From contig OU015678.1 of NCBI GenBank assembly GCA_907165275.2, positions 2,604,001 to 2,668,000 of the forward strand: DNA of 64,000 nt, read 5' to 3'. Within the stretch, counting starts at the first letter, position 1; every line of letters begins with the position of its first letter. The stretch comes from Zygaena filipendulae. Taxonomy: Eukaryota; Arthropoda; Insecta; Lepidoptera; Zygaenidae. Shown piece after piece: positions 1 to 48,700 of the stretch. The position numbers and the translations under genes are program-made. Below the pieces are notes generated by a model. That model worked only from the letters and a program-made list of their open reading frames with translations, had not been told where the DNA came from and did no database searches.

Positions 1-10896
<10,896 letters not shown>

Positions 10897-23912: not shown

Positions 23913-24911
23913 CTAAGAATTATCTGAAGTCACTTCTTCATCTTCATCCTCGGGTTCTGCCAAGTCAGGATGGCACACTCTTATGTGGAGATTCAGGTTG
24001 ATCTTGACGATGAAACTCTTGCCACAGGTTGTGCACTTGTGTGGCCGTTTGACCTCATCATCTGTTGTCGGTGGGTGAGCCCTGGCTAAATGTGTACGCA
24101 GCAGGGACGAATGCATTGTCCTGTCACACTGGATACATTTCACCAGACAGTCCATTGGCTGACCCTCATGCGACTGCCTGTGTTTTTCCATTGTTATCTT
24201 GGACACAAATTGCTTGTTGCAAATGTCACATTTGAAATTTTTTACCTTCGTATGTTTCTTCATGTGTATCTTCATGCAATTCTTAGTTGGGAACATTTCA
24301 TCGCATTTCGCACATTTGAACTTTTTGATGTCATTGTGCAGCTGCATGTGGAGTTTGAGATAGGCCTGGCCGGTGAAGCTCTTATTGCAGATCTCACAGT
24401 TTATTGTGCTCACCAGCGAATGACTTTGCATGTGACTCTTTAAGAACTGAGCAGCAATGAAGCTCCGATCGCAAACTTCACAAATGTATTTCTTCGAAGT
24501 GGAACCTTCATGCTTGCTCCTGTGTATATCCAGGTGGTACTGGGAGTTCACTTTCACGTCGCACTGGTCACACTTGAACTTACGCCGCTTCTTGGGGCCT
24601 TCTCTCACCACCGGAGGGTCGGGCTCGCGCGGAGGGGTGTCCTTATCGTTGCCATGAAATTTTTTGTGTAGCATCAAGTACTCCATCCCTTCAAAAGCCA
24701 TGTCACACACTTCACACCTGTACCTCGGCTCGCTCTGCTGGGATTTCATCTCGTACGTGACGTTTTCCGATCCGTTGTATACCTCAGCCATCTTTTCGCG
24801 TTTCACCGATGATCTGTCGTTCAGATTCTGTTTATCGTTCGCACCGGCCGGTTCCATTACACTTTTCATCCAATGATCTTGTACTACACCGACGCCCGAC
24901 TTGTTCTCCAT
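23913..24911 (-). CDS. C2H2 zinc-finger protein, eight fingers, single coding exon
   Basis: Probable nuclear DNA-binding protein; the target is unknown. 332 residues from ATG 24911 to TAG at 23913. After an acidic, Lys-rich leader come eight Cys2-His2 units: YRCEVCDMAF, FKCDQCDVKV, YICEVCDRSF, INCEICNKSF, FKCAKCDEMF, FKCDICNKQF, VKCIQCDRTM and HKCTTCGKSF, each with the His pair. The linkers are not the classic TGEKP. The tail is very acidic (EPEDEDEEV). No ZAD, BTB or KRAB domain is visible, though an upstream exon cannot be excluded. It is divergently arranged with the zinc-finger/transposase gene about 0.8 kb away. Orthology not assigned. Confidence 0.88.
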   Translation of the reverse strand: MENKSGVGVVQDHWMKSVMEPAGANDKQNLNDRSSVKREKMAEVYNGSENVTYEMKSQQSEPRYRCEVCDMAFEGMEYLMLHKKFHGNDKDTPPREPDPPVVREGPKKRRKFKCDQCDVKVNSQYHLDIHRSKHEGSTSKKYICEVCDRSFIAAQFLKSHMQSHSLVSTINCEICNKSFTGQAYLKLHMQLHNDIKKFKCAKCDEMFPTKNCMKIHMKKHTKVKNFKCDICNKQFVSKITMEKHRQSHEGQPMDCLVKCIQCDRTMHSSLLRTHLARAHPPTTDDEVKRPHKCTTCGKSFIVKINLNLHIRVCHPDLAEPEDEDEEVTSDNS

Positions 24912-25713
24912 TTGCAGTGACGCTGTCTTAACACATATTGGCTCTTCAATATTGATCCGTAATGCGTGGATGTAGCGTTCCCACTCGCATAAACTTTATT
25001 TAATTTGTGCAATAGAAATGCTAATCGTTTGTTGTTGATGAGATTCTCGGTAATTTTACAACTTTTAGCAGTGAGACACAAAAGGAAGCCTTGTTACAGT
25101 AACATAAATTCCAAAAGAGAAGCGATGCGCATAGTTTTTTTTTTTGATGGCTAATGACATAACAATGACAGCCATTCGTTTTTGATTTTGACAAAACAAT
25201 GTTACCAGCGAGGTACCACAAATTATCTAACCGTAACCGTTATCATAGGACATGACATGATTGAACACAACACACAACACAATATCGAACTTTATGCGAA
25301 TAAGTCGTTAAGCTCTCATCTGAACTTTAGTTTTCACGTAGTCACCCAAAATCAGCCAATCAAAACTTTAGTTTTGCGTGACCACGAGAAAACTAAAGTT
25401 TTGATTGTGACCAAGTGACATGACAACTGTCGATTCGTTACGTTTTCTATGCGTTTACGATGGTAGAATGTCAATTTAGGTATGAGACTGCATGGCTTCA
25501 TAGGTTGGTTGTAGTCGGTGAGTTGTCTCCGGCGCTGGTAACATTTTTAGACTAATGTCAAAACCCAAAAGTCAAATGTGAAATATCGGAATTTTTGCAA
25601 TGGCGTTATGTGGAGGGGTTCAGTATTTATTTACTACTTACAATATTTTTTCTAAAATGATCTGTTTATAAACATAATATTTGCAAATAATCGGACGTTG
25701 TTCCCAAACCGCT
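24912..25713. promoter_or_regulatory. Divergent intergenic region between two C2H2 genes
   Basis: About 0.8 kb separates the two opposed start codons, so it should hold both promoters and 5' UTRs. It contains a foldback-related repeat (25312-25480). No unambiguous core promoter motif seen. Confidence 0.45.
25312..25480. repeat. Foldback-family repeat
   Basis: AACTTTAGTTTTCACGTAGT pairs with the later GAAAACTAAAGTT. The end TTTCTATGCGTTTACGATGG and GTAGAATGTCA match 8633-8825 and 22760-22800. Confidence 0.55.
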
Positions 25714-25932
25714 ATGACCGATAACCCACAAGCGCATTGTTCTATCCGCGATTCATCCTCATCGGACGAAGAGTGTTTGTCAGCGATAAAAAATAAAGTG
25801 GATCTTTATAAAAATAAATATTCTACTGATTACGATGAAGATAGCGACGAAGACTCGATAGTGCCGGCTGTTTTGGTGAAGGTTGAAGTGACGGAGGTCA
25901 ATGAGAATGATTTCGCATTAGATTATTCAATG
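25714..25932 (+). CDS. Fusion gene exon 1
   Basis: 73 codons, MTDNPQAHCSIRDSSSSDEE to DFALDYSM, donor ATGGTAAGC, phase 0. Acidic, no domain. The frame extends a little upstream without an ATG. Confidence 0.75.
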
Positions 25933-28900
25933 GTAAGCGTTCTAACATACCTAATTTGAAAGGCAGCCAATATACACACTCCTACCGCCACAATATATAT
26001 AAATACTAGCTGTGCCCCGCGGTTTCACCCGCGATAACTTCAGAATTCCCGCGGGAATTCCGGGATAAAAAGTAGCCTATGTCCTTCTCTGTACCCCTGA
26101 CAACGTGCATGCCAAATTTCATCCAAATTCGTTTAGCCGTTTTTTGCGTGATTGAGTAACAAACATCCAAACATTCACACTTTCACATTTATAATATAGG
26201 TATATACATATAAATGTAAATAATAAATATAAGTTCACACCTAGTCCCAAAAGGCTGTAGGCGGAACTACCTACCTACCTCCTTGTGTCAGTGATGTTTG
26301 TGATTTCTGGATCATATTGTTTAATTGGCCTATTTGAGTATTGAGAGCTCTCAACCTTTTAGATAAATTTTGGAATCCCTAGTAATATTATTGAAAGTAA
26401 TTCTGTCTGTCTGTTACGCTTTCACACCATAACGGCTCAACCAGTCATCATAAAATTTTGCATACACATCAGAAGTCCAGAGAACGACAAAGGGTACTTT
26501 TTATCCCGGAATTCCTCCGGGAACTCTGAAATTAGTGCGGGTGAAACTGCAGGGAACAGCTAGTTATGTCATCATAAAATTTTGCATACACATTATCAAA
26601 AGTCCAGAGAACAACATAGGGTACTTTTTATCCCGGAATTCCTTCGGGAACTCTGAAATTAGTGCGAGTGAAACTGCAGGGAACAGCTAGTTATGTATAA
26701 ATCACCTTGTGCGGATTGATCAATATATTGATTGTGTTAATAAATATTAGTGTTAATGATTTAAGTATGTCTCACTAAACTGTAAATTCAACTAAGTATT
26801 TGAACTAAAAATAATTTATCATTTATTGTCATATTAAATATTACGTATAAAACTTTTACCGGTCAGTACTGCTCTCCTATAATTAAATAAAAATAAATAT
26901 TTTACAGAACAATGCTCAAATTCCCGCAGCAAAATCAAAAAGAAAACTCAGAAAACCACAAAAAATATCAAAACCAAAGAAGAAACGCACATATGATTGT
27001 GGACAATGTGATGCTAATTTTGAATATGTAGCGGAGTTAAGGAAACATTCTCTGACACATCAAGTGGAGACGAGGTTGGTTACTTTTTAAGAGGAATTAC
27101 TTTGTGAGTTCTACTTTCAATGACCCCTTAAGGACAGGTAATTCCTAAAATTAATAGCTTTAATCACTATAATTTATATACAAGGATGATACATCACTGA
27201 AATAACATTCTTAATAGATTGCGCTAAAATGCATCACACCTGCCAGCCAAAGTGGGAGAATCGTGCAAAGAACTGATAAAACTTGATTGATCTCATTTTG
27301 AGAGTGGTTTAAAGGAAAATTCATAGTCAAAATCACTGAAATTCAAATTATTACATCACATTTAATATGTACTTAGTTATGTAAAAAATTTGAAAATCAA
27401 CCCTAAATACTAAAGCTGTGACAACACTTTCATATTGTTTTTCTGATTCCTCTAGACTCGCTTCTAGTTGTAGCAGGTTGTGGGGTGGCATGTAGTACAG
27501 TAAATCAACTGAGAGAACAGAAAGCAATGAACTGAATAACACAAATGTAGATATAGGCGCATCAGCGAAAGCTGCTAGTCTATAAATAAATAATAATAAT
27601 AATTATAACTTATAATCGTGTTGGCAAATTTTGTACTTAATGGTAATGTAATAAAGTCCTTTATTCACTATTTTCTTTTCTTCATATTACAGACATTTCT
27701 GTGAGCAATGCGGCAGGTATTTCAAGAAGGCGTTCAGTCTGCGCTTGCACATGCGCGTGCACGACATTACTCAGGAGAAGTGTCCACTATGCGACCTCAC
27801 TTTCAGCATGCGACTTCACCTGGTGAGTGTTGCCCGTCGTTGGCGAAACATCTGTTATCTATGTGTATATTATATGTCACTGTAAATAATAAAAAAAAAA
27901 CTGTAAAATATTAAATAACGGTAGTAGACTCTGTTTTGGTCACATTTACAACCGATAGCAGATATTAGCATGCCATACGTGCAAACGCCTCAACGTTGCC
28001 AAGCTTGCCAACCTTTTACAATTTAAAAGGTTTTGAAAATTTACGGTCTCATACTATAATGAAGCTTTAGTTTTTTTTGGGGCAATAAACTTTCCCACTG
28101 ATTTATTAACACCCAGCTAAGACTACTGAACATAGATCTGAAGATATATGGGCCAGCAGTTTCTTATTGCAACACAATCGAAATTTGCATAGATAAACTT
28201 CGCTTGCCGTGTAAATGGCAGTGTGTACAAGGTGTTCTGAAAAATTATTCAATTCTTTGTATTGTAATTCTAATGACGTCGGGTTTTTTTAATACAATTG
28301 AATTATTGTCTCCAGGGTCGCCACCTCATGACCCATGAGCGGACGGAGTGGTGTGACAAGTGTCCCGCCAGGTTCCACACCAAGGAGCAACTGGAGCAGC
28401 ACCACAACAGCACCCATAATGAGAACAACATAAAGTCACAAACTGACAGGTAAAACGTTTGGAAGCTTTGAAACTACAAAACGGGGGACGGGGGTAGGCC
28501 AAGATTACGCGCTACAAACCACAAGGCTATTATTTAGGTTACTTAATATACCTAAATAAATAAATAAATAAATAAAAGCCATTTATGGCCAAAAAAAATA
28601 TACAATAAGAGAACCTAAAATTATATCGTTAATGGAGAGAGTCGCGAATGCGCGAGTCGCCCCAGCACAAAATCAACAAAAGAAACATACTTACAAATAA
28701 CATATATTGTGGCAATAGGAGTGCATTCAGCGTGTGCTGGATGAACATCCTTAATCCAGATGTTCACCCAGCGCTGGTTTTCAATGCACCCCTTGCTCGG
28801 ACTAGGGTGTTTTACCTTGACAAAAGAAAAATATTGTGAAAGCGGGTTATCCTACAATAAATTAAAACCTGAATGCACTACAATAAATAAAACAGCATTA

Positions 28901-31543
28901 CAAAAAAAATAGAAATAAAAATAAAACTAATTACCACGCGCGCGTGTGTGTGTGTGTGTGCATGCGTGTGTATGAGTTGGTGTGTTTAGGAGTAAGATAT
29001 ATCTTTGATTTTAAATAGTAGGTGATTATTTGATTTTAAATACCTTCCAATTCCAATTCCGATTTGTTGTTTTTAATAGCTCCACCGTTTTGACGATAAT
29101 TCTGCCAATGTCACAGTTTGAAAAGCCACGGCATAGAATTGATTTGATTAACCGGTACCTATTAATATACCTTATTGTTAAGCATTATTGTTACATAAAT
29201 TTACTTCTTTTGGAGAAGGCAAAGGAATCTAAGTCCATACAGCCAGTTCAGATGTCTTTCTTTTCTGAAGTTGTTTACATTGAAATACATGGGTGAGATG
29301 AATTTCGATGCTTCGCCGGGACTTCTGGAAGAAATTCTTCACAAATGGATCTTAATGGGATACTCTGTAGCAAGTTATATAGTAGATTAATAAATAACCT
29401 GCTTAACACCCCACTTCATATTATTTCACTGTTTCCATAAACTGTTCTTCACTAATGGATCACTATTATGCAAATTTCACCATTTTTACACAATATTAAC
29501 CACGACAAACTAATTTGTAAAACAAAGAAATAAAACTGACGTCCATTTTACTCAAATGCTGCCAAAAATCCCTGACATTTTAATGATTATAGGCCTTTTA
29601 ATATATAGAACCGCAGAAGAATAACTAGCATATTCTTCTGAGTATAGAACTATTCTTCTGAGATATAGAATGTCATTGATTATTATAGACATAGATACAG
29701 AAATCTTTAGGTTGTTTCAAGCAATGTTTCAAACCATTCTCATTGAAATTCCAAATTCAATTCCCTTCAAGCGAAATTTCTATGAATTTTCAGATCTAAA
29801 ACAGTTAAAAATCAATACCAAAGTGCAGAGTCATCCGACAAGCAAATGGACAACTCTGATGATACTGAGCCGGGTACTTCTACAGTGTTCGACTGTGTCA
29901 AGAACGAGCTAGACTCTGATGACTATGAAGACCACAACACAAAAAATAAAAAATTAAACAACACCCAAGCACAAAACAACTACCCACCGAACTACTTGAA
30001 GATGGAAGACATGAATAGTTCGACAAAAACAGCTATAGTGACCAAAATGCATAAAGGGAAGTCTGTTCCCGATCTTTGTAGACTATACAACACCACACCC
30101 GATGTCATTAATAGCATTTGGGAGGAGAGAGAAAAGTACACGCTAGCTGGAAAGCACGGAAAGAGAACAAATAGGTATATGAATAATCTGTTAGATTCGA
30201 AGCTAGTAGCCTGGTTCAACGAGCAGAGAGCAAATGATGTGCAAGTCTCCGGAAAAATGCTGCAAGACATAGCTGAAGCTTTTGCCAAAGACTGTGGGTT
30301 CGTCGCCTTCAATGGGAGCAAAAAATGGTTAGATCGGTTTAAGAAAAGATACAACATATTGCTAAGGTCAACCCCCAGGAATAGGGATTATCATAATCCA
30401 GCAATAGAATCCAAATGGAAGAAGCAATTCTTCAAAGAGCAATGGAGTGATGCCAGCTTAGGTTTCTGCAGCGAGGACATTTTTACAGCGGATGAGGTAG
30501 GCTTCTATTACAATCCTTCTAAAGGTCGGATTAAAAAGCTGGCTGGACGAAAATATATACAAGGACATATCCAAGATAGACTTGCCATATTTATGTGTGC
30601 CAATGTTAGTGGCAACATAAAAAAAAAACTCTTGGTGTGTGGCTCCGAGGATCCGCTGTTGCATTCACATAGAAACCCTGACACATTGCCCGTTACGTAT
30701 ATAAGACACAGCCAAGCTCACTTCACAACACAAATATTCGAAGAATACGTCAAATATTGGAACAGAGAGCTACAGATAGCGAATAAGAGGGCAATATTAA
30801 TTTTAGATCGCGCAACTATACATTCCAAATTACAATTATCCAACCTAAAACTAGTCTTTGTTCCATGGAAAGCTTCAACGGGTTTGATGCCGATAAAAAA
30901 TGGAATACACACAAAATTTCGCGAAGAATTTCGTAGGTTAGTGCTTTTAGAAAAATCTATGAATGTCGTTAGAGGAGTTGACAGAAATATGACCTGTTTG
31001 GAAGCCCTCAACATGGTATGTAAGGCTTGGGAGAGAGTTCCATCAGAATCTATAACCAAAGGTTTCGAAGTGACTGGCTATGATATACAAGATGTTGTAC
31101 ATGAAAGAAAATGGCTGCCACAGCCTAAAGTCAGTGACAAAGATGAAGAGGTTATGTGCAAAATGCTGGAAGATTTCGATGTAGAGCCATATTTTACAGA
31201 TTTAACCAGCCTTGACATGTACTTGACGGTTGATGACGAGTTTTTGACAGGTCAAGGTACAAATGGATCTGTTTTTGGTGGGAACCATAGGGTAACTGAT
31301 CCACCCACGAAATATAGTCAAAATGACGAAGAATCAATATTGCCACTAGCCACAGATAAACCAGAATCTGAAGAAACGGAGGATGTAGTAAAAAGAAATA
31401 GAGCTTTGCAAGATTTAGAAATCGTTAGGAAATATTTATTAAGTAATAACACTTCGTATGAAACATATTGTTCTTTTATGGAAGTGGAAAAGTTTTTAAT
31501 GCAACTTCCTGTAAATTACGAGTCAAATATTTGTGAAAAGTAG
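25714..31543 (+). CDS. C2H2 zinc-finger / pogo-Tigger transposase fusion protein, five exons
   Basis: Five exons (25714-25932, 26908-27074, 27693-27822, 28316-28449, 29794-31543) with GT-AG introns and matching phases give one 799-residue frame. Residues 1-100 are acidic (DEDSDEDS) with a Lys-rich patch (SKPKKKRT). Four C2H2 fingers lie at about 102-124, 130-152, 159-181 and 184-207. The last exon adds SKTVKNQYQSAESSDKQ and then a pogo/Tigger-type transposase: CENP-B-like helix-turn-helix (about 287-334), a second HTH of the Tc5 type (349-406, KKWLDRFKKRYN), and a DDE-like core (about 420-634). Asp450 (TADEVGF) and Asp555 (LILDRATIH) occupy the first two catalytic positions. The third, PMDQG in active relatives, is PIKNG here (Lys585). 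No transposon terminal repeats were found. I infer a domesticated, probably non-cleaving DNA-binding protein, analogous in layout to vertebrate POGZ. The splice to exon 5 is unproven; if wrong, the transposase is a separate gene starting at 29846. Confidence 0.75.
26006..26200 (-). mobile_element. Helitron-like copy
   Basis: CTAGCTGTGCCCCGCGGTTTC at left (terminal hairpin plus CTAG, reversed) and TTCACATTTATAATATAGG at right. Confidence 0.7.
26377..26690 (+). mobile_element. Helitron-like copy with tandemly duplicated 3' part
   Basis: A copy runs from TCCCTAGTAATATTATTG to CTAG at 26560-26563. Its last 127 bases are then repeated (TTATGTCATCATAAAATTTT onward) to a second CTAG at 26687-26690. 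Confidence 0.65.
26908..27074 (+). CDS. Fusion gene exon 2 (finger 1)
   Basis: Acceptor TTTTACAG, donor GAGGTTGGT. It codes a basic KRKLRKPQKISKPKKKR stretch, a possible nuclear localisation signal, and finger YDCGQCDANF..HSLTH. Arg split AG/A with exon 3. Confidence 0.85.
27075..27692. other. Fusion gene intron 2
   Basis: No exon. A retroelement tail repeat occupies 27508-27610. Confidence 0.55.
27508..27610 (+). repeat. Retroelement 3' end, second copy
   Basis: Matches 15017-15100 (GCAATGAACTGAATAACACA, CGAAAGCTGCTAGTCTATAA) with an AATAAT tail. Confidence 0.5.
27693..27822 (+). CDS. Fusion gene exon 3 (finger 2, first half of finger 3)
   Basis: Acceptor ATTACAG, donor CTGGTGAGT. HFCEQCGRYF..HMRVH and then CPLCDLTFSMRLHL; the histidines of this finger lie in exon 4. 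Confidence 0.88.
28316..28449 (+). CDS. Fusion gene exon 4 (end of finger 3, finger 4)
   Basis: Acceptor TCTCCAG, donor ACAGGTAAAA. GRHLMTH completes finger 3 with correct 12-residue spacing; finger 4 is WCDKCPARF..HHNSTH. Exits in phase 2 with AG, needing a following A, which exon 5 supplies. Confidence 0.88.
28450..29793. other. Fusion gene intron 4
   Basis: 1.3 kb between the finger exons and the transposase exon. It contains an (AATA)n run near 28553, CG/TG dinucleotide repeats and an AAAGGAATCTAAGTCCATAC repeat shared with 33790. No other exon and no transposon terminal repeats recognised. Confidence 0.5.
28936..28960 (+). repeat. (CG)n/(TG)n microsatellite
   Basis: Alternating CGCGCGCG followed by TGTGTGTGTGTGTGTG. 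Confidence 0.8.
29794..31543 (+). CDS. Fusion gene exon 5: pogo/Tigger-type transposase
   Basis: Acceptor TGAATTTTCAG at 29793. The first base completes an Arg codon and 17 further codons lead in frame to the internal Met at 29846, then 565 residues to TAG. The frame is intact for 1.75 kb, which argues for selection rather than a decaying transposon copy. Confidence 0.85.
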
Positions 31544-32793
31544 ATTTTATCTGTTCTAGTAAACCCGGAATTAGGGTTGGCACAACGTAAATTTAATTGT
31601 AGCTGTAAGTGTAATATATTGTAAATACATATTTGTATATTAAATGTTAAGAGTTCAGTGTGGTAGAATGTCACGTCTGTGACCATAATAAGATCCGAAA
31701 CCCGGCACCAGTTTTAAATTGATATAGGTATAATATTTAATGTGGTTTCCGCGATTTACCGCAATATCTTCCCACATTAAATTTACAATCCTAGGAAATT
31801 TATTGGGGTAACTTTTTGTGGGAATAAGAGATGACCAACCAGGGCCGGCAGTCTCAACAATGTTTGACAACGTTATCGTATCGATCGTTAACTAGGGACC
31901 CAAAAATCATGACGATCAACATCATCATTACAGTAACCTATTATATTAAATGCAAGCCTCGACTCAAGACGGTTACTGTAATTATGTTGATTGTCATGAT
32001 TTTTGGGTCCTTAGTTAACAATTGACACGATAAAATTTTCAAAACATTGTCAATACTGCCGGCCCAGGTTGATTTCACAGGAAACTCAAGGAAATTGGTC
32101 TTTATATTTATATTGAAGTGAAATCACTGCCAAATTGTTGTGATTTTGTTTTGTTGAAACCAGTACCATTGCTGTTTGCATTCAGACCGTATTGTCAAAT
32201 GTATAGAAGTTATTGTCAATCGACAACTGTTTTATTAAGAAGAATTATTTCAAGTCTTCAATTTTAAATTTATTATAAATAAATCGAATTTTATTTGTTG
32301 TCTATTTTTGGTACCTACATTTTATTGATTTTATTTTACCTACATTGTATGTGCAGTTAGGTATTGAAACAGTTGTAGACCCAATTGAAGTTGCCGATCT
32401 GAAGGTCCCTCACATCATATTGCAGGACTCTTTTTTTTGGTTAAAAATTTCTACTAGGCCATAACAAAATAAATATGACATACAAATAAAATTTAAAGAA
32501 ATAAAATTTTTATTTAGCTATTTACACTAAAATAATTTAAATCTACAAAATAAAAATTTTGAGCGTCTTAAGCTGTTGCAGCTTGCAACAGACAGGTCAG
32601 GTGAGTACTTGACTTATGACTTTTTTACACTCTTTAATTTTATGGACTAGATTGGGGACTGACTTAAAACTATCGCAAAATCTTCAAAGGGTAAACAGCC
32701 CCAACAGGAAATGGATGAATTCATGTACTGTACAAATTAACAATATTGCACATTAAAAATGTTATTTCATCTTAGATTAGCTACACTGTCAAC
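31544..32793. other. Intergenic between two convergent gene ends
   Basis: Holds the 3' UTR of the fusion gene, a foldback element (31840-32067), and the probable 3' UTR of the minus-strand exon at 32794 (reverse AATAAA near 32509). The GCAGCTTGCAACAGACAGGT stretch near 32578 is unassigned. Confidence 0.5.
31840..32067. repeat. Foldback element with about 100-bp arms
   Basis: Left CAGGGCCGGCAGTCTCAACA, right ACTGCCGGCCCAG. Both arms contain GGACCCAAAAATCATGAC and ATTACAGTAACC. The YAGGG-type end recalls hAT MITEs; target duplication unclear. Confidence 0.75.
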
Positions 32794-32924
32794 TTATTTT
32801 TCTAATGAAGGTGAGACATTCTTTCCTAACACATTCTCTTTGTATTTTAGTTTCTCAACTTTGGTAGGGTCTCTTAGCAACTGTTCTTCTGTTAATCTTT
32901 CTAATCTCTGGTCTTGGACTGGTT
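32794..32924 (-). CDS. Terminal coding exon of an unrecognised gene
   Basis: Reverse strand: acceptor CCAATCTTTTCAG, then 42 codons and TAA at 32794, reading PVQDQRLERLTEEQLLRDPT to VSPSLEK. Charged and helical, with codon use that looks real, but no family recognised. Upstream exons were not found confidently between 32925 and 34140. Confidence 0.45.
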
Positions 32925-34143
32925 CTGAAAAGATTGGAAGAAATAAAATAATGAAATAATTCCAGTTCTCTAGAGCAGTGTTTTTCAATGTGTGGGTCGC
33001 AATCCTCTGGTGGGTTGCGAAGAGGTCGCAAAAACTACCTTTTATTAAAATAATAAAAATATAATAATATTGTATGGTTGAATAATGAAATAAGTAGGTA
33101 CTTGAAGAAAAGTGGGGGATTTCATACTAAAGGGGTTGTGTCATGAAGAAGTTTAAAAACAGTGCTCTACATTGATATAGACCTCTCTGAACTGGATATA
33201 CTACTAGAATGGGTTGTCTCATTCTATGAACTCTGTGAGATTAGTAATAGACTTCCAAAAAAGGAGGTTCTCAATTTGACTGTATTTACTTACTATTGTA
33301 TGGTGTATATTTATCAGACAGCAAGCTCTCCAGATTATAACCAATTATTCCCACAACAGCTGCGAACGGCAAGGTTATATAGGGCGCGTTGGTACGCAGA
33401 AATTGCATCAATATAGGCCACATATCTGCGACAGAAGTTTATAACTTAGACAACTCTTCCCTATTACAATAATTTTTAGGTTACTTTGAAGTAAGTAACT
33501 TGCCGATAGGTAGTTGTTTATCTTTAACATAAGATATTCTATGAATTCCTTTAACTCATATACTCACTTAGCTTAAAACTATAGTTCCAGACAGTAAACA
33601 CAGGTTTCTTAAAGGTTCTTAGGACACGAAAACTTTAGAAAAACAAGAAAGATTTTTTTTTTCATTTATTTATCCTATTTTTATATAGGAAAGGCTAAGA
33701 GTACAGGGCCCATACTGCCAAAAACAAGAAAGAAAACAAGTTGAAAATTCGCCAATTCTGTTTTGTTTTTTTCTTGGAATGGGGAAGGCAAAGGAATCTA
33801 AGTCCATACAATCAGTCAGAGTCTAACGCAACTAGGAACAAATTAAATTTTGTTCGTATTTAGCACTCATTTTTTTTTTAATTTTTTTTTCCATGGCATC
33901 AATGATGGCCTCACATGCTATTTCAGTCTTTTGTCTCTGAATCTTTCTTACAATCTGTCATCTGTTTGTCATGGCGACGCATGTTGTTATTTGGGTAAAT
34001 AATTGTGTGATTTTTAAAAATTTTGTGTGATTTACGCTTTGAAAAGTGCAGTGTGACTATTAAAAACTATTTTCTTGTGATTGGGTAGTGAAATACCACC
34101 GATTAGACGGTGTAGTACGTATGTAATTTGTAGAAAAAGATAG
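32925..34143. other. No confident gene
   Basis: AT-rich. A fragment of the AACCGACTTCC repeat lies near 33250. AAGGCAAAGGAATCTAAGTC (33785) repeats the sequence at 29216. A short reverse frame (IQRQKTEIACEAIIDAMEKK, about 33880-33950) could be an exon but lacks clear splice sites. Confidence 0.4.
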
Positions 34144-38500: not shown

Positions 38501-40481
38501 ATAGATAGAGGTATTTTCGAATTGTTCGAAATTATCACGGGTGAATCCGCGAGGGACAGCTGGTAAAGTAATATTTTAAAAATTTCCCCAAACCCAATCT
38601 GGCTATAAAAACGCTTGAAACAGTTTAAATTTAATATTTGACGTTTTATGGATTTTGTTAATTGGGCGTGTTAGTCATAATATTATAGTCATTGAACCTT
38701 TTGCAACTAAGTAACTATAATCTAATATATATAAATCACGTGTCACGTTGTTTGTCCGCGATGGACTCCGAAACTACTGAACGGATTTTGATAAAATTTT
38801 GTAACCGTTTATAATATGGTCCAACTTAAAAGATAGGATAGTTTTTATCCCGGAATTCCCTCGGGAATTGAAGGACATAGAGTACTTTTTCCCGCAACCT
38901 CCGCGGGAACTCCGAAATTACCGCGGATGAAATCGCGGGGGACAGCTATTCTAATATAAATCACGTGTCACGTTGTTTGTCCGCGATGGACTCCGAAACT
39001 ACTGAATCATTCGTGATGAAATTTCATCACTATGTTGTATTTGGCCCAACTTAAAAGATGGGATAGTTTTTATCCCGGAATTCCCGCGGGAACTCCGGAA
39101 TTATTGCGGCAACAGCTAATCACCGTAAACTACTGGCAGGGATACAAAGAAGGACATAGACTCTATGTCCTTGTTTGTACCCCTGCCAGTATTTTTTCCC
39201 GGATTCCCGTGGGAACTCCGAAATTACCGCGGATGAAATCGCGCGGGACAGCTAGTTATATTATATTAATTGTAGCGGTGGTTTCACGCTGCAAACGGTG
39301 GACGTCGACTCGCTGACCGTGTGGTATCCGGACGCGTGGGCGCTGATGCGCGACGTGCGCGCGCTCGGCGAGTCGAACGCGGCGCTCAACCGCCCGCTGC
39401 GGTTGGCACGCGACGTTCAGTTCGCCGCCGCCGCCATATACGACGAGATGTACGGCAAGGTGAGGGTTGAGTACACACTGTATAGGATGTATAGTATCTG
39501 ATCAATAGCTTTATGGATACTCACCCATACTTCCTTATTGAGTGAGTTCTTTTATTTCTTTGCTTGTTTGTTATGCTTTCACGCCTTAACGTCTCAACCG
39601 ATCATCATCGTGAAATGAAATTTATATAAGGCACAAAAACAGTGCAAACCTTAACAAAAAGATATTATAGCAAAGATATAAAACTTTACCCACAACGTTA
39701 GAGAAAAATATAGGAATTATAATAGTGAAATGTTAACAATAGCTAATTCAATAATTCAAAATCATAATTTAATTTAGTTTTTGCGATTCGCTACCCAGTC
39801 GATGATATTATTATTCGACTTTATTATTTGACTTTCTTATTTGACTTTCTTATTTGATTTTATTATTTGACTTTCTTATCTCAATTTTATTTGACTTTAT
39901 TATTTGAGTTTATTATTCGACTTTATTATCTGACTTTCTTATTTGATTTTATTATTTGAGTGTATTATTCGACTTTATTATCTGACTTTCTTATTTGATT
40001 TTCTTATTTGAGTTTCTTATTTGACTTTCTTATTTGACTTTCTTATTTGACTTTCTTATTTGACTTTCTTATTTGACTTTCTTATTTGACTTTATTGTTT
40101 GACTTTCTCACCTCAATTTTATTTGACTTTTTAATCTGACTTTATAATTTAACTTTCTTATTTGACTTTATAATTTCACTTTCTTATTTGACTTTATTAT
40201 TAAACTTTCTTATTTGACTTTATTATTTGACACTGTTGTTTGACCTTATTAATTATTATGTATTTGAATTTGACTTGTCGCAGGAGGTGCCGGAGCGCGG
40301 CTCGCGCGGCGTGCCCGCCACGTACCAAGTGATCAACTTCCTCGGCTGGAAGCCGGACCCGTCGCAGCCGGAGCCGATGCCGCGCGGCAGCGGGGACCTC
40401 TCGCTCAGGGACCTGTACCGGATCGACGAGGTCATACGAGACACCCAGCGGGTCGCAGCCACCGACGGCGATGGCAAATAG
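35251..40481 (+). CDS. NDUFAF5: NDUFAF5, mitochondrial complex I assembly factor (SAM-dependent), six exons
   Basis: In the family this matrix protein of the SAM-methyltransferase fold hydroxylates an arginine of NDUFS7 during early complex I assembly. Exons 35251-35563, 36354-36509, 37238-37338, 37704-37849, 39276-39459 and 40284-40481 join in phase to give 365 residues (human about 345). The N-terminus is Ser/Arg/Leu-rich without acids, a mitochondrial presequence. Then come [17 protein letters not shown], the SAM motif ELGAGRGYV (about 103-111), [41 protein letters not shown], and the ESNAALNR and [13 protein letters not shown] segments, all in family order. Introns 1, 4 and 5 are loaded with repeats. 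The start is the first ATG of exon 1. Confidence 0.93.
35564..36353. mobile_element. NDUFAF5 intron 1 filled by Helitron-like fragments
   Basis: Minus-oriented body at about 35630-35806 (AATTTCATGATGATCGG, CACTTTCACATTTATAATAG). A second, mosaic copy runs 35812-36326, from TTAGCTGTTCCCTGCGGG to TTTTTAATATTAGTAAGA. The latter is interrupted around 36020-36170 by the TTTATTGCACA repeat also seen at 6295. Confidence 0.55.
36354..36509 (+). CDS. NDUFAF5: NDUFAF5 exon 2
   Basis: Acceptor TGTTTTAG. The donor is GTGG/GTATAA; the alternative CAA/GTGGGT three or four bases earlier would put a stop into exon 3, which decides the choice. Confidence 0.85.
36510..37237. other. NDUFAF5 intron 2
   Basis: Very AT-rich with long A/T runs; nothing identified. 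Confidence 0.5.
37238..37338 (+). CDS. NDUFAF5: NDUFAF5 exon 3
   Basis: Acceptor AGTTTCCAG, donor GGGGTGAGT. Codes [20 protein letters not shown] through LKPDG. Confidence 0.92.
37704..37849 (+). CDS. NDUFAF5: NDUFAF5 exon 4
   Basis: Acceptor GGCCGGCAG, donor TGCGTGAGT. Strikingly GC-rich compared with its AT-rich introns. Codes [19 protein letters not shown] to DVGGLLA. Confidence 0.92.
38051..38382 (+). repeat. MITE-A copy 4, most complete
   Basis: Outer ends AATTGGGTA (38051) and TAGCCAATT (38374-38382) are near-inverse; inner ends lie at 38090-38099 and 38345-38354. 332 bases in NDUFAF5 intron 4. TGACGTCA occurs twice (one followed by ATATT, one by CGCG). Confidence 0.85.
38413..38563 (+). 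mobile_element. Helitron-like copy
   Basis: Starts TCCTTACATATTATAAAAC after A, ends GTGAATCCGCGAGGGACAGCTGG. CTGG fits the Helitron CTRR end. Confidence 0.65.
38721..38949 (+). mobile_element. Helitron-like copy, ATAAATCACGTG subfamily
   Basis: Starts TCTAATATATATAAATCACG after A. The end GATGAAATCGCGGGGGACAGCTAT has CTAT instead of CTAG. Confidence 0.7.
38950..39255 (+). mobile_element. Helitron-like copy abutting the previous one
   Basis: Starts TCTAATATAAATCACGTG on the base after the previous copy and ends GATGAAATCGCGCGGGACAGCTAG followed by T, 20 bases before NDUFAF5 exon 5. A local palindrome AAGGACATAGA / TCTATGTCCTT lies inside. Confidence 0.75.
39276..39459 (+). CDS. NDUFAF5: NDUFAF5 exon 5
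   Basis: Acceptor TTAATTGTAG close behind a Helitron end; donor AAGGTGAGG. Codes [19 protein letters not shown] through IYDEMYGK. Confidence 0.92.
39810..40276 (+). repeat. 13-bp minisatellite TTATTTGACTTTC, about 35 units
   Basis: Imperfect tandem array of TTATTTGACTTTC with variants (GACTTTA, GAGTTTA, CGACTTTA). It fills the second half of NDUFAF5 intron 5 and runs into the acceptor of the last exon. No spacers, so not a CRISPR array. Confidence 0.9.
40284..40481 (+). CDS. NDUFAF5: NDUFAF5 exon 6
   Basis: Acceptor CTTGTCGCAG. Codes [20 protein letters not shown] then GWKPDP to the end at TAG; 65 residues, GC-rich. Confidence 0.92.
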   Translation, partial: EVPERGSRGVPATYQVINFLGWKPDPSQPEPMPRGSGDLSLRDLYRIDEVIRDTQRVAATDGDGK

Positions 40482-44558: not shown

Positions 44559-45708
44559 TCAGTGCCAATGGCCAACGCAGTGGCAAAGCAGCAAATATAC
44601 GGACACGACAATTAGATTCCCTATCATGATGGGAAAACCGACTTTGAAATACTGCATGAATGTGAATCTGTAGCCGTGTTGCTCGGCCACTCCTGCGCAT
44701 ACAACGTTCGCGCTCGCGCCTATAAGTGTCCCGTTGCCGCCGAGGCATGCGCCGAAACTCAACGCCCAAATTAGAGGCGGCAGAGGCAAGTTGAGACCCT
44801 CGGGGTCGGCCAATGACGTAGTCACTCTGATCATCATTGTCGTCAAAGGGATATTGTCAACGAACGCCGAAGCCAACCCAGATATCCACAGCACCAGCAT
44901 CAAGGCGACCAGAAGCCGCGACTCTTCGTTCACATTCAGTATCACAGCCTCGGTTTGCTTCCCTATCCATTTGATCAGACCCAATTTGGACAGCGCCTCC
45001 ATTAGAACGAACAGGGCCGCGAAAAACAGCAGCGTCGACCATTCGACTCTAGCTAAGATCGGTTCTAAATCGTCTCTCTCGGCTAACAACAGCAGCAATA
45101 TGGCGCCCAACAGCGCCGTCCAGCCTAGAGACAGCCTTTGCAGCTCCGGAAAAGCGTGCAAGAAGAAAACAATTACAACAAACATTATGCTGACGGTGCA
45201 TTTTACTAGCAACTGCTTGTCCCTAATCCCATACTTTTGCTTCATCTGTGCCAATGTGGAGCAAAACTTTGGATCCTTTTTCCTGTTCCCACCGCCTGCT
45301 TCCTTCTTGGTTAACGCAGCGTTGAGCCTCTCGACTTTCTTCTCCAAAGCCTTCCTCACTATGTCCTCGTCTTGCGAATAGGACGACAGTGAGGCGGCCG
45401 CTCTTTTCCAAACGAAAATCTCTTGCCGCATCTCTTGGATGTCTCTGGGCACGCTGTGCCTCAACTTGTTTATATCTCTGAACATAAATCTCAGTTGCAA
45501 GTACGTTTGTACGCACACTAGGAGCACGCCCGTACCCATGTGCACTGTGAAGTTCATGAAGTTGATGTTTGCTTTGAGAACGGCGGGGTGGCTCGCTATG
45601 ATGACGTTGGGGGGATCCCCCACGGGGGTGGCCGTGCCGCCTATGTTGCTGAATATCACCGTTGCCATTAATATTGCTATTGGATTCAATTGCATCACCT
45701 CACATAGT
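44559..45708 (-). CDS. Oca2: Oca2 last coding exon
   Basis: Acceptor TTTTTCCACAG, 382 codons plus TGA at 44559. It holds the GDPPN motif, a cytoplasmic charged loop ([16 protein letters not shown]) and six or so membrane segments; ends [10 protein letters not shown]. The long plus-strand frame opposite it is an antisense shadow. Confidence 0.95.
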
Positions 45709-48700
45709 CTGTGGAAAAAGAAGTAAGTTTTTTTAATGATTGATCGATTTAAATTTGGATACTAACAAAATTGTTTCATAATCTACAGTTCCGTTTATTT
45801 CCAAAGCGGGAAAACTATAAACTTTAAACGGCTTTTAAATAATTACTAAAAAAGATGAATCGACTTCCGTACATTAATATTTTTTATTGTTAAAACAATA
45901 ATAAAAATCGTTTTCAACTCAATCGTGTAATGCTACTAAGCATTACACACGATTGAGTTGAAAACGATCTTGAAATAGGGCTACATCACCCCATCATCAG
46001 TCTGTAGGTATAGAATGAATATTACAATGGTACCTATATAGCTGCATAATTATATTTACCTCGATTACTTTCTTTAACTGATAGATTGGTATTTGTTAAA
46101 AAACTAACAGTTCAACCTACTTTACCTACCTATTAAACTAAAACTTTCCTATAACCTCTCTGATAAAAAAAAACGTTAATACAATATGCTAACTACTACT
46201 AGCTACTGAGGACAGATCCAGTCGTCCAGTGGGCCGTCTTTACCAGGGGGTGCAAGGGGTACGAGCGAGCGGACTAGGACCCCTTTCATACTGCAGTGTG
46301 TCGTCAGTCGCGTCATGCGTGCCACGCTGCAGTGTAGAAAAAACGAGGGCGCCGGTTGACTCCCGCACCCCGGCGCAGAATAGACTTAAGACGGCGCAGA
46401 ATAGACTTAAGACGGCCCCGGACAGATCTGTTCTTGCTAGCGTTCATCTAAGATAAACTTTACGGTGTTGAAGGTTCCTCAGTAAATTTTTACTGTACCT
46501 AATGTGTATTTGGCTGTAATCGCCGATCATCGTCTACGATCGCCTGAGTTGTCGGTTTTTGGGCACGCATCAAAGGGAATCGCCTGTGGTCGCGTTGTGG
46601 TGTCCACATTATCGCCTATCACACGATCAACTATCATCAATGATAATGTAGTGCAGACATCAAATAGCCTGAACAAATTACCTGATGGTGACCGGAGTCA
46701 TGAGCAGTATAGTGGTGACGTTGTCGAGGAACGTGGAGAAGATCGCCGTGAAGGAGCACAAGCATAAGATGAGGGGCCACGTCCGGCCGCCGGTCAGCTG
46801 GGGGCAGACAGTGGTTAAATTTAACTTTGAATATTTTAATTTCCAAAAAAAAATTGAGCCGTCGTCGCGGGACGTTTGGCAGATATGAAATCATTTTGTT
46901 TAAAAAATAATTGAGCATAAAACGAAAGGAAACGAATACCTATAGCACAATTAAAAATAAGATAGATATTTATACTTTTTTAAAGAAAATTTTGATATAG
47001 GTACATACAACGTATTAATGAATTAACTGAAAACTAGAAAGTAGTTTGGTCAGAGTCGACTAGCGAATCGATCGCACTATGTTTTAATATAGGTTATATT
47101 TTTCATTTTTACTAGCCCATGTCTAAATTATTTATAATACAAAATTAGGCGCGTACGCCGCCCGCAGCAAAAAAAAAAATCGAACCGGTAGGCGCGGGCG
47201 TAAGCGCTTGGAATTTCGTAGATAGGTCACCTCCAAACTAATGTTGAATAACTTTTTAATCATATTATTGTTTATTTGTTTAATGGGGTATTAATTCATT
47301 AACATGTTGTATAAATAACAATAACAATAATAACTTTAATTTAATACAAATATTAAATGGAGACAACTTATAAGTAATTTTCTTCATTAGTGACTTAGTC
47401 TCTTGCGCCACATTGCTACGTTACATATAGCGTAGCGACGAATGCCGCGTGGTGATGCCACATTTATCACGTTTACCGCTATATATTTGTTACGGTAGAT
47501 GTGTTAAATAGCCAATACGGAAACGGAATAACGTAAAATGCTTAATGGTATTTCAGGGCTATTTTGGAAAAACGTAAGACCTGGGCAGCCAGATAAAAAA
47601 TAAATAGTTGACGGCTAAAGGATTTGCTTTAATGGCTATTATTAAATAAAAGAAATAGTTCAATAAGACCTCTTGCCACTCACCTCGAACGCCATCACTG
47701 CTAAGTAGTCGAACAGGCCTGTCTCCGACATGATGGCGACCAGCAGCATCATGCTGAAGAGCAGCAACAGCGTCTCCACGTCCAGCCACGACACCAGCGC
47801 GGGGAGCGAGGGTCGCGCTCCCGCGAATGACAGCACCGCAATGGAAAGTGACGAGCAAAGCAGCGCGGCTAGCGTGCGGTTCACTATCTGCACCACGTAA
47901 CAGATGGAAGCCATCAACTAAGTTTGGAGTTTTTGGCGGGCATCGAAGATGGAGGTTCATTACTTTATTTTCGTGTCAATAAAAAATGGTTAAAAGTGGA
48001 TTTTGTTGTGTTTTATGGTGCTATATTGGACAATAATTTTCACAGTGACATAAATATTTGTGTGCTCAAGAAGATATATAACATTTTGGAGCTGATTTCT
48101 TCGGTATCCTCCAAGAGCTCCGAGAAAGTTCTTGTAGTCTATTCAGTAACACGGCCTACAAGTTCAAATCATACAATGATGCTAAACGCTAATTTGTGCA
48201 TTTTACTAACTTATTTTACTTGAAACTGGCTAAATGCATTATATGCGAAAGCCAGAAGAAGAAAGAAAAAGAAAATAAGTTTATTACGGAAACAAACGAA
48301 AACCACGCATTGTCGGGTGATTGTAGGTACAATTATCTATTCATTACGCACAAAAACGTTGAATAACGCAACGAAATTTATTAAACGCCATGTCTTTACT
48401 CAGTCACTGTTTACAAAATTGTCAGTTTTGGTAATACTGTGGAAAATATACTTAGGTCGTCAGCAAAGGAAGTTTATCGGAGTTCCTGCGGCAATTCCGA
48501 AACTCACGCGGGTGTAACCGCGGGGCCCAGTTAGATACCAGAAAACGATCTATAAATGGACGCAGATAAGCAATAACATGTTAACCCACAAAATTATGTT
48601 ATTGATTCAGAACAATTTATTGAGAGTTAAGGAACGTTTTTTAATTATGTGTTTACCTTATTACATTGCTTAAATATGTAACTAAATATTGAACATAAAA

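Follow-up and report, generated by a model that had tools for sequence, protein, structure and literature searches.

A zinc-finger–transposase fusion gene of Lepidoptera, putatively old and catalytically dead

Where an open reading frame runs from C2H2 zinc fingers straight into a transposase, is it a host gene that took in a transposon-derived exon, a pair of neighboring genes joined on paper, or a transposon that landed in frame? This question is raised by a locus on the + strand of a 64,000-nucleotide stretch of Zygaena filipendulae DNA (contig OU015678.1, positions 2,604,001 to 2,668,000; C29:2604001-2668000 in the 366-Mb genome of 56 contigs), hereafter the window, to which all coordinates refer. 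With a probability of about 0.72, we favor a host gene that arose in the distant lepidopteran past, when a C2H2 zinc-finger gene acquired a pogo/Tigger-type transposase as its final exon. From the sequence, we interpret it as an ancient host-transposase fusion that is no longer catalytically active.

The fusion gene (25714-31543; 5830 bases including introns) has five exons that join in frame to give 799 codons plus a stop, and all four introns begin with GT and end with AG, exactly as laid out in a preliminary description made from the DNA alone. Exon 1 (25714-25932) encodes an acidic N-terminus (SSSSDEECLSAIK...) that lacks a finger and is alignable to the N-termini of relatives. Exon 2 (26908-27074) carries a basic stretch and finger 1 (26998-27060), exon 3 (27693-27822) carries finger 2 (27700-27762) and the start of finger 3 (from 27781), and exon 4 (28316-28449) carries the remainder of finger 3 (to 28336) and finger 4 (28352-28417). 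The four fingers announced in the preliminary description are present, but not its "four C2H2 exons", as the fingers are found in exons 2-4, with finger 3 split by intron 3. Exon 5 (29794-31543) comprises a linker, the transposase-derived part and the stop codon. Intron 1 contains a 127-base unit twice in tandem (26444-26696, 93% matches).

The finger exons are separated from the transposase exon by intron 4 (28450-29793), and unspliced reading past exon 4 meets an in-frame TAA right after the donor. Exon 4 ends in phase 2 (AG); these two bases form an Arg codon with the A at 29794, opening the transposase frame, which is intact for 585 codons (29786-31543). Its first Met lies 18 codons past the junction codon, in agreement with the preliminary description. 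Four of the 86 AG dinucleotides tested from ~28460 to 30100 open this frame through to the stop (29794, 29824, 30019 and 30082). The acceptors at 29794 and 30082 share the best tract (11/15 pyrimidines before the AG); only the former of the tied pair is a CAG, it is also the furthest upstream, and use of the latter would cut away part of the conserved first helix-turn-helix (HTH) region. The originally proposed acceptor was retained.

In the 799-residue protein, the acidic N-terminus and the four fingers are followed by a Tc5/CENP-B-type HTH and a pogo/Tigger DDE core. Pfam matches consist of four zf-C2H2 stretches encoded by exons 2-4, and HTH_Tnp_Tc5 (30188-30361, the second HTH; 52.1 bits) and DDE_1 (30575-31066; 88.2 bits) encoded by exon 5. 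A PDB search returned the CENP-B DNA-binding domain 1hlv for the second HTH (E 1e-7) together with two further matches, both weak (E 0.017 and 0.91). These matches bear out the earlier assignment to a pogo/Tigger-type transposase with a CENP-B-like HTH and a DDE domain. HTH_Tnp_Tc5 and DDE_1 were both detected in all 28 rows scanned, including the outgroup P0031, and these domains indicate that the transposase half is of pogo superfamily origin.

The catalytic core is altered. The first and second catalytic Asp residues are retained (D450, 30491-30493, and D555, 30806-30808), and Lys replaces Asp at the third position (K585, 30896-30898). All 30 family rows have K or R at this third position, where P0031 has D; a complete DDD/DDE triad, as in an active pogo transposon, was not found in the fusion family. 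Among 12 distinct other pogo-like loci of the same genome (L001-L008 and L015-L018), a QP[ML]D motif was recognized in eight, all eight of which have D, and the motif pattern did not settle L005, L008, L015 and L016. The spacing between the second Asp and the third position is 29 in all 32 rows for which the pattern found both motifs, 30 in L001, L002 and P0031, and 34 in L003.

A protein search with the 799-residue fusion (cut-off E ≤ 0.001) returned 33 proteins: 30 relatives, the distant pogo protein P0031, and two finger-only proteins from a sandfly and a snake. Finger, HTH_Tnp_Tc5 and DDE_1 are all listed for 19 of the 30 relatives. The 20 relatives with species names represent 18 species, all of them Lepidoptera (Aphomia, Achroia, Mythimna, Spodoptera frugiperda, Helicoverpa, Heliothis, Trichoplusia, Parnassius, Papilio xuthus, Papilio machaon, Battus, Manduca, Bombyx mandarina, Dendrolimus, Arctia, Pectinophora, Phthorimaea and Eumeta). 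By taxonomy look-up, Eumeta belongs to Tineoidea and Pectinophora to Gelechioidea, both in Ditrysia; for the remaining species, the family-level names used here are the ones we take to apply. Alignments span at least 87% of the 799 residues, with the parts in the same order, for 17 of the 20 species-named relatives, as expected for the in-frame fusion originally proposed. The preliminary description had called for a search for the same architecture in other Lepidoptera, and with 18 species from many lepidopteran families the architecture is not limited to one assembly; the capture appears from this comparison to be both more widespread and older than had been assumed. Fusion-type proteins are already in public databases under automatic names: 10 of the 20 species-named relatives are visibly called "tigger transposable element-derived protein 4" or "4-like", and one "3-like".

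Searches with each half were also carried out. A profile search with the transposase half gave 32 matches, namely the 30 relatives, one additional member (P0034) and, at E 3e-5, a protein from Patella; P0031 was not recovered, so the reach of this search is limited. The finger-half search gave eight matches, the best of which are partial lepidopteran models (P0036 from Papilio polytes, P0037, P0038 and P0040), and no unfused ortholog of the finger half was recognized among the eight, where candidates were limited to about 119-378 residues. A scan of viral_contigs for fusion relatives gave none.

In a maximum-likelihood tree of 33 rows (P0013 and P0020 omitted), the 30 family rows are split from three outgroups with support of 100/100 and a long stem (3.05). 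Groups expected from taxonomy were recovered for Gelechiidae (100/100), two Galleriinae (100/100), papilionids (100/76) and noctuoids (93/99), and Bombyx is placed with Manduca (88/94); 10 of the 30 inner branches are open, and P0028 and P0030 form long branches. Of the underlying alignments, A1 omits P0020, an incomplete second Helicoverpa model, and A3 omits P0005, P0006, P0011, P0013 and P0020. Taken with the protein comparison, the tree indicates vertical inheritance of a gene that is conserved among species.

Host exons and transposase frame are joined in one coding sequence in the relatives, whose parts are colinear with those of the window fusion. P0010 has both halves in a single 747-residue frame on a contig of 2767 bases and, since this contig is shorter than the 5830-base gene of the window, presumably derives from cDNA; a spliced transcript would best explain it, with a processed copy as the alternative. 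P0036 spans the junction, reaching from the fingers to the first part of the transposase, and P0037 ends in HQVKTR, the exon 2/3 border of the window gene. The frames of P0027 and P0029 have FRSQQ close to their starts, resembling the IFRSKT obtained when the window is read back through the acceptor. These frame starts may represent the same acceptor and the same phase read from genomic DNA; if the two are genomic, acceptor and phase are conserved. A finger piece (P0038) and a transposase piece (P0017) from Arctia are each on a contig of 1215156 bases, as expected for one gene split in annotation.

Within its own genome, the fusion gene is apparently single copy and without mobile relatives. 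Searched against the proteins of that genome, the fusion protein found itself and, as the next pogo protein, one with 27% identity; a DNA search with exon 5 found only itself and no second copy, repeat counts in such a search being lower bounds. The nearest pogo element in the genome, L001 (G000:C23:506675-508258), has an intact 528-codon pogo frame with CENP-B_N, HTH_Tnp_Tc5 and DDE_1 and a DD30D triad. Because 13 of its end pieces are found elsewhere with 88-96% identity (plus one with 77%), L001 was probably mobile in the not distant past.

Conservation differs between the parts of the protein. Regional identities were calculated for the window against the 15 of 30 relatives with a full-length finger half, leaving out P0013 (an odd model) and treating two gelechiids apart. 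In the transposase half, identity is 60% for the first HTH, 77% for the second HTH, 76% for DDE and 76% for a C-terminal family motif (31184-31291, consensus LDMYLTVDEELLTGQGTNGSVFGGNHK); the tail has 41% identity before this motif and 52% after it, and the linker 17%. Identity is 40% for exon 1 and 45%, 81%, 48% and 50% for fingers 1 to 4, and the zinc ligands of the four fingers are kept in all 15 full-length relatives. For predicted contact residues, numbered as in Zif268, 16 rows were compared (the 15 relatives and the window). Finger 2 has the same residues at positions -1, 2 and 3 in 16/16 rows, with L, M or I at position 6; outside finger 2, near-constancy is limited to position -1 of finger 4 (T in 15/16).

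Several observations weigh against the favored reading. Taking all fingers together, contact positions show no higher conservation than the remaining non-core positions (0.47 versus 0.45), and the two gelechiid rows have lost ligands of finger 1 and, in that alignment, show a gap where finger 4 has its last ligand. The fingers of P0026 from Eumeta and those of P0028 match other rows only weakly, and their finger half may be remodelled, replaced or mispredicted; the descent of the transposase half can therefore be followed back to Psychidae with more confidence than that of the finger half. Of the two halves, the one with the fingers is the less stable, and we are unsure whether the fingers are homologous at the base of Ditrysia. 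CENP-B_N is no longer recognizable in the first HTH; it was found in 1 of 28 rows, judging by the domain list the outgroup P0031, and Pfam gave no CENP-B_N match for the fusion protein of the window. The position of the window row itself is not resolved by the tree. Finally, the species-named matches of the three protein searches include no Nymphalidae, Pieridae, Tortricidae or Plutellidae, which may reflect loss, missing annotation, rows without a species name or the limits of the searches.

By analogy to POGZ and CENP-B, the fusion protein is probably a DNA-binding chromatin or transcription factor. We envisage that a transposase frame was taken in as the final exon of a finger gene in the lepidopteran past and that the finger exons and exon 5 would be transcribed and translated as one protein, which would be unable to transpose. 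This protein would enter the nucleus and bind DNA mainly via the second HTH, assisted by the fingers and above all finger 2. The DDE core, presumably no longer catalytic, and the conserved C-terminal motif might serve as a platform for protein interaction or dimerization; in this way the protein could act on chromatin or transcription. It could also be a sequence-specific regulator, with only finger 2 keeping most of its predicted base-contact residues. According to excerpts of PMC12553604, Lepidoptera are holocentric and without CenH3. A CENP-B- or POGZ-like duty on holocentric chromosomes strikes us as improbable; the pogo-derived HTH would then mark old transposon-related sites genome-wide, with the fingers and the DDE core recruiting partners.

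Is the domestication itself new? The gene of the Spodoptera CENP-B homolog is said to have been described as a domesticated pogo transposase, and if the transposase half were this published Spodoptera frugiperda "CENP-B homolog", the domestication would be known and only the finger half new. We consider this possible, if on balance unlikely. A CENP-B homolog in S. frugiperda is named in the title of d'Alencon et al. 2011, as cited in excerpts of PMC12553604, the fusion family includes an S. frugiperda member (P0004), and the window protein matches the CENP-B DNA-binding domain. The same excerpts describe the Spodoptera homolog as having binding sequences genome-wide, with no direct centromeric role reported. 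However, the scanned family rows are without a CENP-B_N match, and the 1hlv match of the fusion protein is weaker than that of the pogo element L001 (34 versus 52.6 bits). The fusion protein resembles CENP-B in its pogo-derived DNA-binding region, as seen in the 1hlv match, and differs in its lack of a CENP-B_N match and in its added fingers.

A rather unlikely alternative is that the transposase half is a TIGD4-type gene whose domestication, with the Lys already in place, far predates Lepidoptera, only the joining of the fingers being lepidopteran. Vertebrate TIGD4 is DD30K or DE30K according to excerpts of PMC7325037, which leaves a much older shared domestication open, and the TIGD4 and TIGD4-like names of half of the species-named relatives (with the one TIGD3-like name), the long stem of the family and the lack of a close unfused relative in the protein searches all fit such a history. 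On the other side, the spacing is 29 in the fusion family and not 30, the loss of an acidic residue can recur, and no vertebrate TIGD4 and no non-lepidopteran family transposase were returned by the three protein searches, which depend on shared words and one of which missed P0031. Like the TIGD genes, the fusion is a domesticated pogo protein with an altered triad, sharing with TIGD4 the change of the third Asp to Lys; unlike them, going by the descriptions in the excerpts, it has fingers, and its spacing departs from that of TIGD4.

We consider it very improbable that the locus consists of two adjacent genes, a finger gene ending after exon 4 and a transposase with its own promoter, with the fusion as a joining artefact. 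The ready stop on read-through from exon 4, the internal Met of exon 5, the poorly conserved linker around the junction and the existence of single-half database models such as P0037 and P0038 would suit two genes, but we set this reading aside given the exon joins, the relatives that align over most of the fused protein and the single frame of P0010. The chance that a recently inserted or still mobile transposon lies in frame by accident is practically negligible, since the intact 585-codon frame with its HTH and DDE domains and the eight of 21 inverted pairs at 28400-33000 that flank exon 5 (14-27 bases, 74-88% complementary; none conspicuous, and no better than many non-flanking short pairs of the same list) are outweighed by the lone copy of exon 5, in contrast to the 13 end pieces of L001, and by the third catalytic residue changed in every family row.

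The fusion gene lies among several other features of the window. A divergent C2H2 gene on the - strand (23913-24995, seven zf-C2H2 stretches) has its first Met about 0.8 kb from the start of the fusion and may share a promoter region with it. We rejected this gene as the source of the fusion fingers, as the similarity is generic to fingers (best piece 33% over 110 residues). Just 3´ of the fusion gene, at 31836-32071, long hairpin-like inverted repeats are probably a small non-autonomous element. Further away are an uninterrupted 873-codon frame for an MKLP1-type kinesin on the + strand (791-3412, kinesin motor and MKLP1 Arf6-binding domain), a 13-base tandem repeat of about 33 copies (39811-40231), and a citrate-transporter (CitMHS) family exon on the - strand (44559-45761), presumably OCA2/P-protein-like.

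Among titles and the starts of abstracts, which say little about subscription journals, we found no description of a lepidopteran zinc-finger/pogo fusion. The words "transposase", "DDE" and "CENP" are absent from the main text of a silkworm C2H2 survey (PMC6613534), as are "Lepidoptera" and "C2H2" from that of PMC12062965, and excerpts of PMC6947457, PMC7463522 and PMC4585704 contain nothing on the fusion gene. Going by their excerpts, the domestication surveys PMC7386202 and PMC7325037 cover vertebrates or tetrapods.

The closest known system in layout is POGZ, to which the preliminary description had likened the gene while proposing a separate capture in a lepidopteran. In excerpts of PMC7386202 and PMC9976928, POGZ is a Passer-derived host gene with an intact DD35D triad, about 1200-1410 residues, 7-9 scattered fingers and no transposition activity in the reported assay. 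The fusion resembles it in having C2H2 fingers ahead of HTH_Tnp_Tc5 and then DDE_1, and differs in its 799 residues, four clustered fingers and DD29K. Because POGZ is Passer-derived with a DD35D triad, which was not found in the fusion family, whereas the family has DD29K/R and the two pogo relatives closest to it in the same genome have DD30D, a capture independent of POGZ and from another pogo lineage appears likely. The proposed separateness from POGZ thus stands as likely, but more than one lepidopteran shares the capture. Tetrapod host-transposase fusions such as KRABINER (Cosby et al. 2021, as cited in excerpts of PMC12062965) likewise join a transposase to a host domain; they belong to another clade, and the fusion described here is known from sequence. 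If POGZ and the capture described here arose separately, C2H2 fingers and pogo transposases have come together on more than one occasion, which favors the idea that their combination yields useful DNA-binding proteins. The fusion is an insect counterpart of the POGZ-like fusions and a concrete, apparently single-copy and testable gene in an order without CenH3.

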